This document shows, in pieces, positions 460 through 5,670 of a stretch of DNA of 64,000 bases. This DNA is from Agarivorans sp. TSD2052 (GTDB lineage: Bacteria; Pseudomonadota; Gammaproteobacteria; Enterobacterales; Celerinatantimonadaceae). The position numbers and the translations under genes are program-made. The stretch is taken from positions 3,142,501 through 3,206,500 of the forward strand of contig NZ_CP096670.1 in NCBI RefSeq assembly GCF_023238625.1. The letters run 5' to 3'. Positions within the stretch are counted from its first letter, which is position 1. Every line of letters begins with the position of its first letter. The notes under the pieces are model-generated. The model searched no databases and was not told where the DNA came from. It worked only from the letters and a program-made list of their open reading frames with translations.

Positions 460-834
460 ATGATTATTGATATTACCAGCAAGAATATTTCTATTACCCC
501 AACCATTCGTGAGCACATTGCCGCGCGCTTTGAAAAATTGGAAAAAAATCAAATTCCGCTCATCTCACCAAAAGTGATCATTACCACCGACAACAAGAAG
601 GTAAAAGTAGAAGCGAAGATTAACCTGCCAAACGGACAACTGTTTGCCAGCGATGAGCACCAAGACCTGAGTGTGGCGATTAATAACTTAGGACAGAAAT
701 TGGAGCGACAACTGCACCGTTTCCAAGACAAGCCTAATGCCCACCGCTCTAGCCGTTCAGGGAAAGATTTCTTAAGAGAGCCTGCCGAAATTGATGACGG
801 CGAGCCTAATCCAGAGGATGAACAAGCCGCATAA
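460..834 (+). CDS. raiA: Ribosome-associated inhibitor RaiA (YfiA, HPF family)
   Basis: This is a 124-residue protein of the short hibernation-promoting-factor family, which binds the 30S decoding centre and stabilises idle 70S ribosomes in stationary phase or cold. The N-terminal 95 residues form the beta-alpha-beta-beta-beta-alpha fold expected of the family, starting MIIDITSKNISITPTIREHI. The acidic, proline-containing tail (EIDDGEPNPEDEQAA) is typical of RaiA rather than of the shorter Hpf. The start follows GGGAGG by 6 bases. Its position immediately before the pheL-pheA attenuator is the same as in enterobacteria, which supports the RaiA name. Confidence 0.92.
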   Translation: MIIDITSKNISITPTIREHIAARFEKLEKNQIPLISPKVIITTDNKKVKVEAKINLPNGQLFASDEHQDLSVAINNLGQKLERQLHRFQDKPNAHRSSRSGKDFLREPAEIDDGEPNPEDEQAA

Positions 835-1065: not shown

Positions 1066-3069
1066 ATGGCAGACTTAGAGCAGATCCGAACAAAAATAAC
1101 AGAGCTCGATCAATCGCTATTATCTTTACTCACTGAGCGTCGCCAACTCAGCGTTGAAGTGGCTAAAAGCAAAATAGAAAACCCCAAAGCTATTCGCGAC
1201 CAAGAGCGCGAGCAGCTATTGCTGGTAAAGCTGATCAATAAAGGCCGCGAATTAGGCTTAGATGCGCACTATGTAACGCAGCTTTACCACACAATTATTG
1301 AAGACTCGGTGCTCTCTCAACAAGCCTTTCTGCAAGGTATTACTAACCCTGATAAACATACGCCGGCGGTACGTGTCGCATTCTTGGGTAATAAAGGGTC
1401 ATACAGTAATATTGCCACCCATCAATACTTCTCTCGTTACAAAAAACAAATTGTTGAGTTTGGCTGTAGTGGCTTCCAAGACATTGTAGATACCGTTGAA
1501 TCTGGCCAAGCTGATTACGGTATGTTGCCGATTGAAAATACTAGCTCTGGCAGTATTAATGAAGTTTACGACGTCATGCAGCATACCAGTTTGTCTATTG
1601 TGGGTGAGTTATCGATAGCTATCGACCACTGTGTTTTAGCACACCCTAACGCTAATTTAGAACACATTACGACCTTGTATGCGCACCCTCAACCTTACGC
1701 GCAATGCAGTGCTTACCTACGAACTTTAGCAAGCACTCGAGTTGATTTTGTTGATAGTTCATCAAAAGCAATGGAAGTGGTCGCCAGCGGCGACGACTTA
1801 ACGGTTGGTGCGATTGGTAGTCAGGTCGGCGGCGAAATGTATGGCCTACAAGCGCTAAAAACAAACATTGCCAATCAGCAACAAAACTATACTCGTTTCA
1901 TTGTGGTATCTCGTAAACCGGTCGATGTTGCTGAACAAGTGCCAGCTCGCACGACCTTTATCATGTCTACTGCACAACAGGCAGGCTCGTTGGTTGAAGC
2001 GTTGTTGGTATTGCGAGAGCATGATATCAACATGAGTAAGCTAGAATCTCGCCCAGTACAGGGTAATCCTTGGGAAGAGATGTTTTATGTTGACGTATCC
2101 GCCAATGTGAAATCTGCGCAAATGCAATCTGCTTTGGCCGAGTTAACCCGTTTAACTCGCTATATCAAAGTCTTAGGTTGCTACCCAAGTGAAAATGTAG
2201 ACCCCACCTTAATTCCGCTCGAAGCGTTAGCCCATCAGCAGATGACCGGCAATGAAGCGCCTAGCTTAATCAATACCGTGCAAGCTGATGGAGCCCTATC
2301 AAGTCGTTCTCATAAATCAAGTAACACCGTAGTCCGTGTTGGTGATGTAAAAATAGGTGATGGTGGATTTATTACCTTCACGGGACCAGGCGCGGTTGAG
2401 TCAGAGCAACAGATACTCCATTGTGCGGGCGCAGCTAAAGAAAGTGGTGCGGCTGTATTAGCCGCAGGTTGCTTCAAGCCTCGCAGTTCTCCTTATAGCT
2501 TCAAAGGTTTAGGTGAAGAAGGGTTAAATTACCTAAACGTTGCGGGTAAAAAATACAAGTTACCCACAATGACCGAAGTCAGTGCGGTAGACCAAGTAGT
2601 CATGTTAGCTGCTAAAGCTGATATTTTGCATGTTCGCTCTCGCCATATGAAGAACTTCAACCTATTAAAAGAGTTAGGTAAATCAACGCGCCCTATTCTG
2701 CTAGAGCGCAACAATATGGCTTCGATAGATGAGTGGCTGCATGCCGCAGACTACATTTTGGCGCAAGGTAATCAGCAAGTCATTTTATGTGAAGCCGGAG
2801 TGAGAACTCTAGAAGGTAAAAACAAGCTTACTTTGGATCTAGGTGCTATTAGCTTACTTCGTCAACGCACCCACCTACCTATTGTAGTGAATCCAGGCGA
2901 AGCCGTTGAAGATTTAAGTGCGGTAGCCCCAATGGCTAAAGCGGCCAAATTGTTAGGTGCTGACGGTATCGTGCTTTGCGCCCACCCTTCACCTAGCGAC
3001 GCCAGTGTAGACGCGGATAAATCTCTCGACTTTAATCAGTTACAACAACTAATGTCAGCGCTTTATTAA
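1066..3069 (+). CDS. pheA: Chorismate mutase/prephenate dehydratase PheA with C-terminal degenerate DAHP-synthase domain
   Basis: PheA converts chorismate to prephenate and then phenylpyruvate in phenylalanine synthesis. Residues 1-90 are an AroQ chorismate mutase. Residues 102-285 are prephenate dehydratase with the catalytic TRF motif (276-278). Residues 295-375 are an ACT domain keeping LESRP and GNPWEEMF, so feedback by phenylalanine is likely. The protein is 667 residues against about 390 in E. coli. Residues about 420-665 match a type I-beta DAHP synthase (FKPRSSPYSF, KNFNLL, ILCEAGVRT), but the GPC metal-ligand cysteine is Gly442, the KRG lysine is Glu547, the metal histidine is Glu612 and the EVHP glutamate is Cys638. 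That domain is therefore probably inactive. AGGGAA precedes the start. Confidence 0.93.
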   Translation: MADLEQIRTKITELDQSLLSLLTERRQLSVEVAKSKIENPKAIRDQEREQLLLVKLINKGRELGLDAHYVTQLYHTIIEDSVLSQQAFLQGITNPDKHTPAVRVAFLGNKGSYSNIATHQYFSRYKKQIVEFGCSGFQDIVDTVESGQADYGMLPIENTSSGSINEVYDVMQHTSLSIVGELSIAIDHCVLAHPNANLEHITTLYAHPQPYAQCSAYLRTLASTRVDFVDSSSKAMEVVASGDDLTVGAIGSQVGGEMYGLQALKTNIANQQQNYTRFIVVSRKPVDVAEQVPARTTFIMSTAQQAGSLVEALLVLREHDINMSKLESRPVQGNPWEEMFYVDVSANVKSAQMQSALAELTRLTRYIKVLGCYPSENVDPTLIPLEALAHQQMTGNEAPSLINTVQADGALSSRSHKSSNTVVRVGDVKIGDGGFITFTGPGAVESEQQILHCAGAAKESGAAVLAAGCFKPRSSPYSFKGLGEEGLNYLNVAGKKYKLPTMTEVSAVDQVVMLAAKADILHVRSRHMKNFNLLKELGKSTRPILLERNNMASIDEWLHAADYILAQGNQQVILCEAGVRTLEGKNKLTLDLGAISLLRQRTHLPIVVNPGEAVEDLSAVAPMAKAAKLLGADGIVLCAHPSPSDASVDADKSLDFNQLQQLMSALY

Positions 3070-3103
3070 AGCTGGTGAGTTAACAGAAAACTACCGCTAA
3101 ATA

Positions 3104-3132
3104 CGCGGCCTTGGTATTTCACCGAGGCCGCG
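3104..3132 (+). terminator. Hairpin after pheA
   Basis: A strong GC-rich 12-bp stem (CGCGGCCTTGGT / ACCGAGGCCGCG, one G-U pair) with a 5-base loop lies 35 bases after the pheA stop. The following sequence is AATCTTT, a short T tract, so it is a plausible but not ideal intrinsic terminator. Confidence 0.6.
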
Positions 3133-3331
3133 AATCTTTCCCCCTAAGACAGCCCTACCCACCACCCAGCGACTATCATTGATACCTTCCCCCCCGAAAA
3201 CTGATTAAAGCCACATTATTTAACCATTCGCTTACTTTTCACCTATATGGGTGATGTAGCAAAACGGACGATTTTATATATTAGTTCAATGGGTTTGACG
3301 TCTTTAGATAATGACTAATAAAGGGACGATG

Positions 3332-3766
3332 ATGAACATCTTATATCCTTTGGCTCTCGCCCTAGGGGGGGCGATACTGGTTAGTACTGACCAACGTGAA
3401 CAGCTTGAGCAGCCAACCATCCCATCAAAACTGGAAATCATAGCCATTGATGGCAAACTCGAAAATGCTCAAGTCTGGCTAGACCGCAACAACAATTTTA
3501 TTTGCGACCTTGACGAACCTAGCGCAACGTCAAATAAATTTGGCAAAGCTTCGCTCAATATCACCGCTTACCCTGAGTACAGCAAATCCCCAATAGTGGT
3601 GATGGCGATTGCAGGCCAAACCATCGATCAACACTTACCGAATAAAACGATAAGCCATTCATACTTGATGTCGGCCCCCGCAGGACAAACAGAAATAAGC
3701 CCTTTGTCGACCTTAGTACATTTAGAGATGATAAACCAAGGCGGCCAAACACTCAGCAGCAATTGA
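3332..3766 (+). CDS. Small exported or membrane-anchored protein of unknown function
   Basis: I do not recognise a named family. The start at 3332 (with 3329 as alternative) is chosen because AAGGGA lies just upstream; a longer frame from 3311 has no such site. The protein is about 144 residues. It opens with a hydrophobic segment (MNILYPLALALGGAILVSTD) resembling a signal peptide or anchor without a lipobox. Residues about 40-75 contain AQVWLDRNNNFICDLDEPSA, which looks like the calcium-binding-type loop (WLDxNxNxxxDxxEP) seen in repeat modules of large secreted adhesins. It may be a single detached module. Its neighbours give no functional clue. Confidence 0.6.
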   Translation: MNILYPLALALGGAILVSTDQREQLEQPTIPSKLEIIAIDGKLENAQVWLDRNNNFICDLDEPSATSNKFGKASLNITAYPEYSKSPIVVMAIAGQTIDQHLPNKTISHSYLMSAPAGQTEISPLSTLVHLEMINQGGQTLSSN

Positions 3767-3879
3767 TCTAGATGCTAATCTATGCCGATTAGGCACCGCT
3801 TTCGCTTTATTTTTCGCCCTCATGCCGTTAACGTTATTTTACAATCTGCTTGTCATTTTAATTGGATAACAATGACGTT

Positions 3880-5670
3880 ATGCGTAACACGGAACCGTTA
3901 CCCGAAACTCTAATAGGCAAAATTTACGATACCTCCTTAAACCCTGCTCAATGGCCGGAGCTATTGGAGCAGCTGGTAGAATACCTTCCTCTACAGGCTC
4001 AACAACTTACTGGCGAACACGCCATGTTGGGGAGCGAAGGACAACTAAGTACTTGTGTGGTGCCATCCCCAAACAAAGTGTTAGACGAACTAGTCGCACA
4101 CCTTGAGCGCAGTGCTCACATTTGCCAACAAATCGCGAAGGGCCAAGACCAGCAGCTTTTGCAAAACAAGCTGTTTGAACAACTCCCTCTTCCGGCCTTG
4201 TTGCTTTCATCAACAGGGCAAGTACTGCAAACCAACCAGCAAGCACGTAATACGCTTGAAAAAACCACGTCGTTAAAAGTCAGTGATGCCAAAGTCGTCA
4301 TGGCGCAACGGCAAGTTCAACGCCAATTTAACCAAGCAATGGAGCAACTGTGCGCTCCAAACCCTAAACATAGCTCGATAAGCTTACAGGTGGGAGAAAG
4401 CTTCCAACCAAACAGCATTAGCTTAAATTTATCTCGAGTGGTTGATGTATGGCAGCAAGGTGGCCAGGTTCTGGTGTTAATCGCTTGCGCAGAAGCTTTA
4501 GTGGAGGTTGATTTAGACAGTTTCGCTGCACGTTATAGATTAACGCCGGCTGAAGTACGCATCATGGCTCAACTTCTAAAGGAGCGCACCCTCAGTCAGA
4601 TAGCTAGCAACAACACCATTTCAATCAATACGGTGCGAACTCAACTAAAGGCTATCTTTGCTAAAACCGCTTGCCACCGACAAAGTGAGCTAATAAAACT
4701 GGCTTTAACCCATGGTAGCACCAAAACTGCTAAACCTCAGTTAACGCCCAGCTTATTGCAACAACAGCACCTTAGTGCGCCATGTTACCATCAGCAACTG
4801 CGCTTAGATGACCGCCAACATGCCTATAGCGATGTGGGCTTAAGCTCTGACTTACCCGTGTTAATGTTTCACCCCAGCACTGGCTCTCGCTTACAACAAC
4901 ACCCAAATAAAAATACAGTATTCGAACAAGGGGTAAGGCTCATCACCGCTGACAGAGCAGGTTTTGGTTTAGCCAGCACAAATTATAAGCCGAGTTTACA
5001 ACAGTCTGCTAAAGATAGCTTACGTCTGGCTGACCATCTAAAGTTAGATCGGTTTTGTGTTGCCGGTTTTTGCGGAGGAGGGCCTTTTGCCTTGGCGTTA
5101 GCAGCATTAGCACCTGATCGGGTGATTCATACTACGCTGATTAGCAGCGTGACCCCTTACCAACCCATAAAACTTTTGCACGGGGTAAAAGCAAGCAACA
5201 AGCTGCTTGCCTATATTGGCTTAAATGCACCGAATATAATGCACCCCTTGCTAACCTTTCTTGCTCGTAATGTAATGAGTGACCCTGAGCGCTACTTCGA
5301 TCAGGTCTATCCATTTTTATGCGAAAGTGATGCTGCGGCCCTTTCTGAACCGGAAGTAACCAGCAACTTTCTATTAGCTTTTAGGGAGGCAATGCGACAA
5401 GGACCATCAGCATTTGCCAATGAATTATCTTTACTCAGCCAAGACTGGTCGCTGAATCTGTCTGAGATAAACTCCCCCATCAGTATTTGGCATGGGGCTC
5501 AAGATCAGCATGTGCCGATTCAACTAGCTCGCTTACTTTGTAGCGCCCTACCCAATGCAAAACTGCATGAATTACCAGCACATGGTCATTTGCTTATCTA
5601 TCACTGCTGGGAGCAAGTGCTAAACAATATAAAGCGCAGTGCTAAACGACCCCAAACCTGTCTAGCTTAA
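3880..5670 (+). CDS. LuxR-type HTH regulator fused to an alpha/beta hydrolase
   Basis: The 596-residue protein combines three parts. Residues 1-205 carry a sensory-like region with a PAS-like stretch (LPLPALLLSSTGQVLQTN). Residues about 215-280 form a LuxR/GerE helix-turn-helix (YRLTPAEVRIMAQLLKERTL...NTVRTQLKAIFAKT). Residues about 325-590 are an alpha/beta hydrolase. The nucleophile elbow reads GFCGGG, so the expected serine is Cys398; the likely acid is Asp542 (GAQDQH) and the base His570 (HGH). A cysteine at this position occurs in dienelactone-hydrolase-like enzymes. It may sense or process a small ester or lactone and regulate transcription, but ligand and targets are unknown. A TTG at 3862 is an alternative start; neither start has a good ribosome binding site. 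Confidence 0.75.
   Translation: MRNTEPLPETLIGKIYDTSLNPAQWPELLEQLVEYLPLQAQQLTGEHAMLGSEGQLSTCVVPSPNKVLDELVAHLERSAHICQQIAKGQDQQLLQNKLFEQLPLPALLLSSTGQVLQTNQQARNTLEKTTSLKVSDAKVVMAQRQVQRQFNQAMEQLCAPNPKHSSISLQVGESFQPNSISLNLSRVVDVWQQGGQVLVLIACAEALVEVDLDSFAARYRLTPAEVRIMAQLLKERTLSQIASNNTISINTVRTQLKAIFAKTACHRQSELIKLALTHGSTKTAKPQLTPSLLQQQHLSAPCYHQQLRLDDRQHAYSDVGLSSDLPVLMFHPSTGSRLQQHPNKNTVFEQGVRLITADRAGFGLASTNYKPSLQQSAKDSLRLADHLKLDRFCVAGFCGGGPFALALAALAPDRVIHTTLISSVTPYQPIKLLHGVKASNKLLAYIGLNAPNIMHPLLTFLARNVMSDPERYFDQVYPFLCESDAAALSEPEVTSNFLLAFREAMRQGPSAFANELSLLSQDWSLNLSEINSPISIWHGAQDQHVPIQLARLLCSALPNAKLHELPAHGHLLIYHCWEQVLNNIKRSAKRPQTCLA

Follow-up and report, generated by a model that had tools for sequence, protein, structure and literature searches.

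A 64,000-nucleotide stretch of the Agarivorans sp. TSD2052 genome (the window) encodes a PheA protein in which the chorismate mutase (CM), prephenate dehydratase (PDT) and ACT domains are followed, in the same open frame, by a barrel of the type I-beta class of 3-deoxy-D-arabino-heptulosonate 7-phosphate synthase (DAHPS) that has lost its canonical catalytic site. The explanation we favor, with a probability of roughly 0.6, is that this PheA descends from a trifunctional CM-PDT-DAHPS enzyme and that its dead barrel is retained as a non-catalytic structural or allosteric module of CM-PDT. Loci, genomes, families and genera are cited by our own handles (L, G, f and g), with f1 standing for the window's family.

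A dead DAHPS barrel at the C-terminus of PheA

Residues 411-665 score 270.8 bits (E 1.1e-80) against TIGR01361, the NCBIfam model for type I-beta DAHPS, whose cut-off is 267.75, and residues 424-664 score 171 bits against the Pfam model DAHP_synth_1. The match is far beyond chance, and it bears out the statement of the first-pass annotation, made from the DNA letters alone, that a type I-beta domain runs from end to end through the C-terminus of PheA. The alignment to Pyrococcus furiosus DAHPS (1zco, 222 bits) is gap-free at the catalytic sites. An AlphaFold model (mean predicted local distance difference test, pLDDT, 84.9; predicted template modeling score 0.71; pLDDT below 50 at linker residues 390-407) contains a complete barrel, with a template modeling score of 0.94 to 1zco. 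The best fold match, Thermotoga maritima DAHPS, covers 368 columns, more than the barrel, at a root-mean-square deviation of 11.5; in the model the extra columns are taken as its ACT-like domain matching the ACT domain of PheA, in an unsure orientation. Among the PDB matches of the whole protein (58 distinct sequences), none has a best stretch covering both PDT and barrel.

The replacements reported earlier at positions 442, 547, 577, 612 and 638, and the retained Asp649, are all correct in the alignment (Table 1). To these can be added that the Asp of DxxH is Asn609, and that Lys471, Arg473, Arg526 and His640 are retained, as are Arg548, Cys575 and Glu576. The roles of these residues in the metal, phosphoenolpyruvate (PEP) and erythrose 4-phosphate (E4P) sites we presume from general knowledge of DAHPS. 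All 12 sampled genomes of family f1 have the fusion, with the frame open and full length. The Cys, His and Glu ligands are absent from every one, Glu547, Asn609 and Arg548 are present in every one, and residue 612 is always acidic (Glu or Asp), while Asp649 and the KPR motif are each kept in 9/12 and Arg577 in 2/12. The family's orthologs therefore all lack three metal ligands and Lys547, and the canonical DAHPS site is gone, as had been claimed. From these residues we infer that the window barrel would have no DAHPS activity.

It is very improbable that the barrel is still an enzyme, with another chemistry or with a metal site rebuilt from Glu612, Cys638, Asp649 and Cys575. All four residues do occur together in 7/7 genomes of the window's genus, but Cys638 is confined to that genus, being replaced in three sister genera of the family, and the PEP-site Lys and Arg are gone.

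Intact fusions in other phyla

Named genomes were covered by one scan with a single barrel pattern (GNxQ), from which the best 80 of 547 loci were taken; the sample is biased, since its selection depended on one pattern and on resemblance to the window. A CM-PDT-like part precedes the barrel in 78/80, and the remaining two (L078, L117) are cut by contig ends. All 14 catalytic columns checked are intact in 72/80, a count that includes three loci cut short by contig ends (L078, L110, L117). The eight others are L054-L057, from the window's family, L081, with one change, and L112, L119 and L127. Pfam models find CM, PDT and DAHPS in each of ten fused proteins tested (eight from the scan, two from the window's order), and NCBIfam models find the same parts in a fusion from Dormibacterota (L120). 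The hosts are mostly Ignavibacteriota or Bacteroidota bins, with others in Acidobacteriota, Planctomycetota, Actinomycetota, Dormibacterota and Alphaproteobacteria, and transfer of the fusion between phyla is likely. The first-pass annotation had taken the window protein for a new fusion with the usual arrangement reversed; this is not supported, several phyla having CM-PDT-DAHPS proteins whose site is intact. Among the titles and abstracts listed in searches of open-licence literature, none describes a trifunctional enzyme of this kind.

The window protein is a single chain running from CM through PDT to an I-beta barrel that is kin to fused rather than stand-alone I-beta barrels: identity is 48-56% to 73 named fusions (the 72 intact and L081) and 41-46% to 10 stand-alone I-beta enzymes of the order. 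Judged by its residues, it can be classed as a degenerate member of the CM-PDT-DAHPS fusion class, one whose site is no longer intact.

Several loci deserve separate mention. L119 (Ignavibacteriaceae SB14, 1214-3265) retains ten of the catalytic columns but no longer has the Cys, the Lys and Arg of KPR or one further Arg, an independent case of this kind of loss beginning in a different phylum. Of the 14 columns, L127 (Ferrimonas balearica, 1148-3259) lacks just the Cys and the Lys and Arg of KPR. In two other Gammaproteobacteria (G390:C1:2359986-2363248 and G557:C8:504355-507652) pheA and a stand-alone I-beta-like DAHPS are some 1.4 kb apart, perhaps an arrangement like the one that preceded fusion. 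The idea that the fusion serves as sole DAHPS was rejected: this holds in 0/11 named genomes tested for both DAHPS types, each of which carries either a type II gene or a further type I match as long as a stand-alone DAHPS, type I matches having been separated from 3-deoxy-D-manno-octulosonate 8-phosphate (KDO8P) synthase by frame length only.

Distribution across the order

We searched 295 genomes of the same order with the barrel and with the PDT family, the PDT results being those among the matches listed, and re-examined the length of the PheA frame in 67 genomes, with family f1 treated apart. Long PheA frames (at least 631 residues) occur in 12/12 genomes of f1, 21/21 of f6 (apparently Shewanella-like, with frames of 643-711 residues), 4/4 of f12, 3/3 of f14, 1/5 of f15 and 2/6 of those f20 genomes that have a PheA. 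Family f25 is divided, with long frames in 7/7 genomes of genus g28 and 0/15 of genus g38. One genome each of f10 and of f8 genus g89 has a long frame, and a second g89 frame is stopped by a contig end. These counts refer to frame length, whereas alignment of the barrel covered 39 proteins (38 plus L181).

The aligned barrels form a series. L015, L016 and L017 have every checked catalytic residue; L014, L020, L022 and the F. balearica protein L127 are partly altered; all others are dead and some are hardly alignable. For the most decayed (f25, f12, f10 and L181) the column-level alignment is unsure. No convincing barrel remnant was found 3' of unfused pheA genes at 19 loci searched, 18 of them with downstream sequence (572-1201 bases). 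Repeated downstream matches at L172 (best E 2e-5) proved to be the start of a type I-alpha DAHPS gene. The GNxQ motif was considered as a mark of fused barrels and set aside: it occurs in 39/39 fused barrels of the order and in 2/10 readable stand-alone enzymes, and the 80 named loci were not counted because they had been selected by that pattern. The unreadable eleventh stand-alone row, L024, represents a wrongly chosen ORF and was excluded from later counts.

Two side observations concern related genes of the order. Four genomes of f12 (G012, G037, G057, G077) encode, in addition to the fused PheA, a second PDT of 282-298 residues that stands alone. The PDT part of their fused PheA matches weakly by the standard of the order, at 108-125 bits and from profile position 14-20 onward; a hand-over of function is possible. 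At L025 (family f8, 1267-3757) the gene immediately following a stand-alone I-beta DAHPS has anthranilate synthase component I domains, and this adjacency suggests a DAHPS of the Trp branch.

Descent of the fused barrel

In the barrel tree, 39 fused barrels and 11 stand-alone I-beta enzymes are split by one branch of moderate support (87/95). Among the matches listed, a profile of the fused family gives 433-535 bits for most PheA-length proteins of the order and at most 260 bits outside it; within the order, lower scores come from a small genome, G042 (354 bits), from G011 of f11 (E 2.8e-42) and from two other small genomes (E 1e-14 to 1e-17).

A CM-PDT tree of 61 rows was rooted on ten PheAs from outside the order (100/100). 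The deep branches of its ingroup are fused, and 14 unfused rows, E. coli included, sit with fused ones in a 32-row clade (97/90). Approximately unbiased tests, on groups chosen after the tree was seen, reject trees in which the 37 fused rows are monophyletic (p 0.00015) and likewise trees in which the 14 unfused rows are (p 0.0014). Unfused PheAs end inside the same linker stretch. Seven rows (L165, L166, L172, L173, L179, L180 and L014) were dropped between the first and second CM-PDT trees. L172, L173 and L179 sat on long branches inside the clade of the order in the first tree, and L180, which is unfused only through a contig end, is in the first tree and absent later. L220 (a wrongly chosen ORF, with a branch length of 10 in the second tree) and eleven thinned rows were then removed for the rooted tree.

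Because the rooted tree nests E. coli and most sampled PheAs of the order inside the fusions, a trifunctional enzyme is the probable ancestor of the dead barrel, and E. coli PheA has probably lost its own. A fused ancestor with repeated loss is the simplest account; repeated gain is less likely, since the barrels appear to share one origin. One conflict concerns F. balearica L127, whose CM-PDT half groups with f6g31 (L044) and whose DAHPS half groups with f15 (L015); this protein is possibly a mosaic formed by recombination.

Constraint on the dead barrel

Nonsynonymous (dN) and synonymous (dS) divergence was estimated by Nei-Gojobori counts, with 15 pairs for the window's genus drawn from six of its seven genomes (L007 was left out as near L006). 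In that genus the barrel dN/dS is 0.014-0.040 in the 9/15 pairs with estimable dS, and 0.039 in the least saturated pair (dS 0.22); these low values are rough, since dS is saturated in many pairs, which counts against leaning on them heavily. The ratio of barrel dN to CM-PDT dN ranges from 0.29 to 0.69 over 11 intact-fusion pairs, with 0.63 for the mixed pair L015-L127. For the window's genus it is 0.80-2.23 in 12/15 pairs and 3.0-5.6 in the other three, where CM-PDT dN is at most 0.009; elsewhere in f1 it is 0.67 (the f1g2 pair), 0.93 (the f1g4 pair) and 1.5-1.8 between genera. Constraint on the dead barrel is relaxed relative to active barrels, yet strong.

The pattern of conservation within dead barrels was scored at 113 positions that are invariant in 21 intact fusions. 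Across 23 dead barrels, the catalytic face, defined from the model as beta-alpha loops and strand ends (65 positions), retains 31%, against 59% at the 48 positions elsewhere (p 7.5e-6, a value that ignores kinship of the rows). With 14 catalytic residues removed the figures are 33% and 59%, and the alpha-beta loops reach 78% (13 positions). The most conserved stretch, GNQQ, faces away from the catalytic site (Table 1). Leu592 is Leu in 96% of dead rows and aligns with the residue altered in P. furiosus structure 4c1l, titled an interface mutant. Since the genus values are low and the scaffold is kept in dead barrels, the window barrel is not in free decay. The full frame in every f1 genome and the purifying selection in the genus agree with the first-pass view of a full-length domain as opposed to random decay.

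The same data bear on the idea that the old site now binds another metabolite, such as E4P or a sugar phosphate held through KPR and Arg526, and signals to CM-PDT. We consider such a re-purposed sensor improbable. KPR in 9/12 family members, Arg548 in 12/12 and the acidic residues Glu547 and Glu/Asp612 in 12/12 would suit it, but KPR is lost in 3/12, Cys638 is found only in the window's genus, and no part of dead barrels is less conserved than the catalytic face. Of the two ligands proposed in the first-pass annotation, PEP is unlikely to be sensed, because Lys547 and Arg577 are lost; for E4P, the KPR residues are present in just those 9/12 members.

Several observations weigh against a retained module or against its trifunctional descent. 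In f6, f25 and f12 pairs, barrel dN is 1.7-5.4 times CM-PDT dN, which looks like slow decay, and the kept non-catalytic residues may reflect fold stability only. A co-adapted CM-PDT-ACT surface was not detected, in that no position is kept in at least 75% of 37 fused rows and is 40 points rarer in 38 unfused rows; the reverse comparison, unfused against fused, gave 27 positions, which we put down to sampling because the unfused rows are all from one order. Many genera, that of E. coli included, have no barrel, several lineages having dropped it. In the first CM-PDT tree a long branch places L165 (f23) and L166 (f17), PheAs of the order, outside the fused family, and the fused-family profile gives a low score to G011 of f11, so that not every PheA of the order shares the fused history.

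These points lend some weight to a rival that we hold to be unlikely, though the strongest of those considered: the barrel is a useless vestige in slow decay, kept only because the CM-PDT chain, which is essential, would be harmed if the barrel were truncated or misfolded. Such a vestige would account for the graded series from intact to hardly recognizable barrels, for repeated outright losses at the linker, and for barrel dN above CM-PDT dN in f6, f25 and f12 and between f1 genera; the Shewanella version was, moreover, termed a pseudogene in 2005 (PMC1173090). The dN/dS range in the window's genus does not fit it, nor do the barrel to CM-PDT dN ratios of 0.8-1.1 in 7/15 genus pairs and below 1 in the f1g2 and f1g4 pairs. 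Truncation is seen in none of the 12 f1 and 21 f6 genomes, even though sister lineages clearly tolerate it at the linker.

Descent from a trifunctional enzyme with retention of the barrel as a module suggests the following history. The ancestor would have joined CM and PDT on one chain with an ACT domain that binds Phe and with an I-beta DAHPS barrel that was still active, and Phe bound to ACT may have controlled both entry into the shikimate pathway and the Phe branch. With other DAHPS genes present, the barrel of the window's lineage would have lost metal and PEP binding, and would have been kept as a folded module, most likely since CM-PDT-ACT relied on it for assembly or for relay of the Phe signal. 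CM and PDT would be expected to remain active and Phe-regulated through ACT, with expression under the Phe attenuator. A structural or allosteric role for the barrel, first put forward as a scaffold or allosteric domain, thus stands as the best guess. A broader proposal remains tentative, a little below even odds: that an undescribed trifunctional CM-PDT-DAHPS enzyme spans phyla, that E. coli-type PheA is its stripped descendant, and that the dead barrel is an obligate allosteric or assembly module in several lineages.

Other features of the window and its genome

Table 1. Features of the pheA region, in window positions.
Feature	Position	Strand	Basis
raiA/yfiA-family gene, upstream of pheA	460..834	+	ORF; TIGR00741, 77 bits (cut-off 40.9)
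Leader peptide MKIFNTRFLFGFFFIPPL, 6 Phe in 18 residues	917..973	+	Sequence
Phe leader/attenuator RNA, Rfam RF01859	922..1049	+	79 bits (gathering threshold 55)
pheA, 667-residue CM-PDT-ACT-(dead DAHPS) fusion, one open frame	1066..3069	+	ORF, Pfam, NCBIfam
Chorismate mutase domain CM_2, residues 7-86	1084..1323	+	Pfam, above cut-off
Prephenate dehydratase domain, residues 104-284	1375..1917	+	PF00800, 184 bits; TRF motif T276-R277-F278 kept
ACT domain, residues about 305-359	1978..2142	+	Sub-cut-off Pfam match; GSLV and ESRP present; fold matches
Linker, residues about 375-410	2188..2295	+	pLDDT below 50 at 390-407; unfused PheAs of the order stop within the matching stretch
Dead type I-beta DAHPS (beta/alpha)8 barrel, residues 411-665	2296..3060	+	TIGR01361, 1zco alignment, fold model
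Gly442 for metal-ligand Cys (GPC)	2389..2391	+	Alignment
Glu547 for PEP Lys (KRG)	2704..2706	+	Alignment
GNQQ 568-571, alpha5-beta6 loop, face away from catalytic site	2767..2778	+	Most conserved stretch in dead barrels
Ala577 for Arg of CERG	2794..2796	+	Alignment
Asn609...Glu612 for Asp...His (DxxH metal ligand)	2890..2901	+	Alignment
Cys638 for metal-ligand Glu (EVHP)	2977..2979	+	Alignment
Asp649, sole kept metal ligand of four	3010..3012	+	Alignment

In a 48-row alignment the CM residues R8, R25, K36, D45, E49 and Q85 are invariant and R48 nearly so; the window has all seven, which we take to be the catalytic residues of AroQ-type CM. Its CM is also above the cut-off of NCBIfam model TIGR01797. 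The ACT region of the predicted model matches the Phe-bound PDT structures 6vh5 and 2qmx, while its Pfam score is below cut-off; GSLV and ESRP are presumably its Phe-binding motifs. The whole protein scores 546.7 against the equivalog model NF007910, below the cut-off of 577.

The host genome is a single contig of 4.62 Mb. Its other PF00793 genes encode a type I-alpha DAHPS, which adjoins a CM-prephenate dehydrogenase, and a KDO8P synthase; it also has one type II DAHPS. Because the genome has type I-alpha and type II enzymes, the dead barrel, without an I-beta partner, is probably not missed as an enzyme. A heteromer with a true I-beta DAHPS was rejected for this genome, none being found there, and the earlier suggestion that the barrel binds true DAHP synthases is correspondingly weakened: I-beta pairing is unlikely.

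Elsewhere in the window, positions 3862-5670 of the forward strand encode a 602-residue protein in which an alpha/beta hydrolase domain (332-586) follows a LuxR-type helix-turn-helix (residues 227-281, with a score slightly under the Pfam cut-off), an unusual order.

Comparison with known systems

T. maritima DAHPS (1rzm) is regulated by Tyr and has, as we understand it, a small ACT-like domain directly before its I-beta barrel, a likeness to the window protein; unlike the latter it is an active enzyme and has no CM or PDT. The CM-DAHPS fusions of Listeria and Geobacillus (3nvt, 5j6f; the Listeria structure is presumed to come from that genus) and the DAHPS-CM fusions of Porphyromonas and Prevotella resemble the window protein in having CM and I-beta DAHPS on one chain, and differ in that they have no PDT or ACT and that their DAHPS is active. 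In the Porphyromonas type the domains are mutually dependent: these fusions lose nearly all activity when split (PMC12202928). CM of Mycobacterium tuberculosis is activated more than 100-fold by a DAHPS (PMC4281200). By analogy with these two systems, a dependence of CM-PDT on the barrel would have precedent.

E. coli PheA, the P-protein, is an ortholog of the window PheA by tree and by gene order, raiA-pheL-pheA in both. It has 386 residues in a CM-PDT-ACT arrangement and stops in the linker after ACT, without a barrel. The results suggest that this textbook protein derives from a three-activity enzyme. Intact, partly dead, fully dead and deleted barrels provide a natural series for studying the change from enzyme to pseudoenzyme, and make the role of a dead catalytic barrel for its partner domains directly testable.

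The closest precedent is a fusion in Shewanella oneidensis, the subject of a 2005 paper in BMC Biol. reportedly by Song, Bonner, Wolinsky and Jensen. It is the same gene as that of the window, with the same order of parts and a dead I-beta domain at the C-terminus. In that paper, aroQ-pheA is fused to an aroA-I-beta pseudogene, and the fusion is called "bizarre" and "of unknown origin" (PMC1173090). Set against that single pseudogene, the barrel of the window's family keeps its full length and is conserved, and there is support for an origin from intact trifunctional fusions, which offers a source for the fusion that seemed bizarre in 2005.

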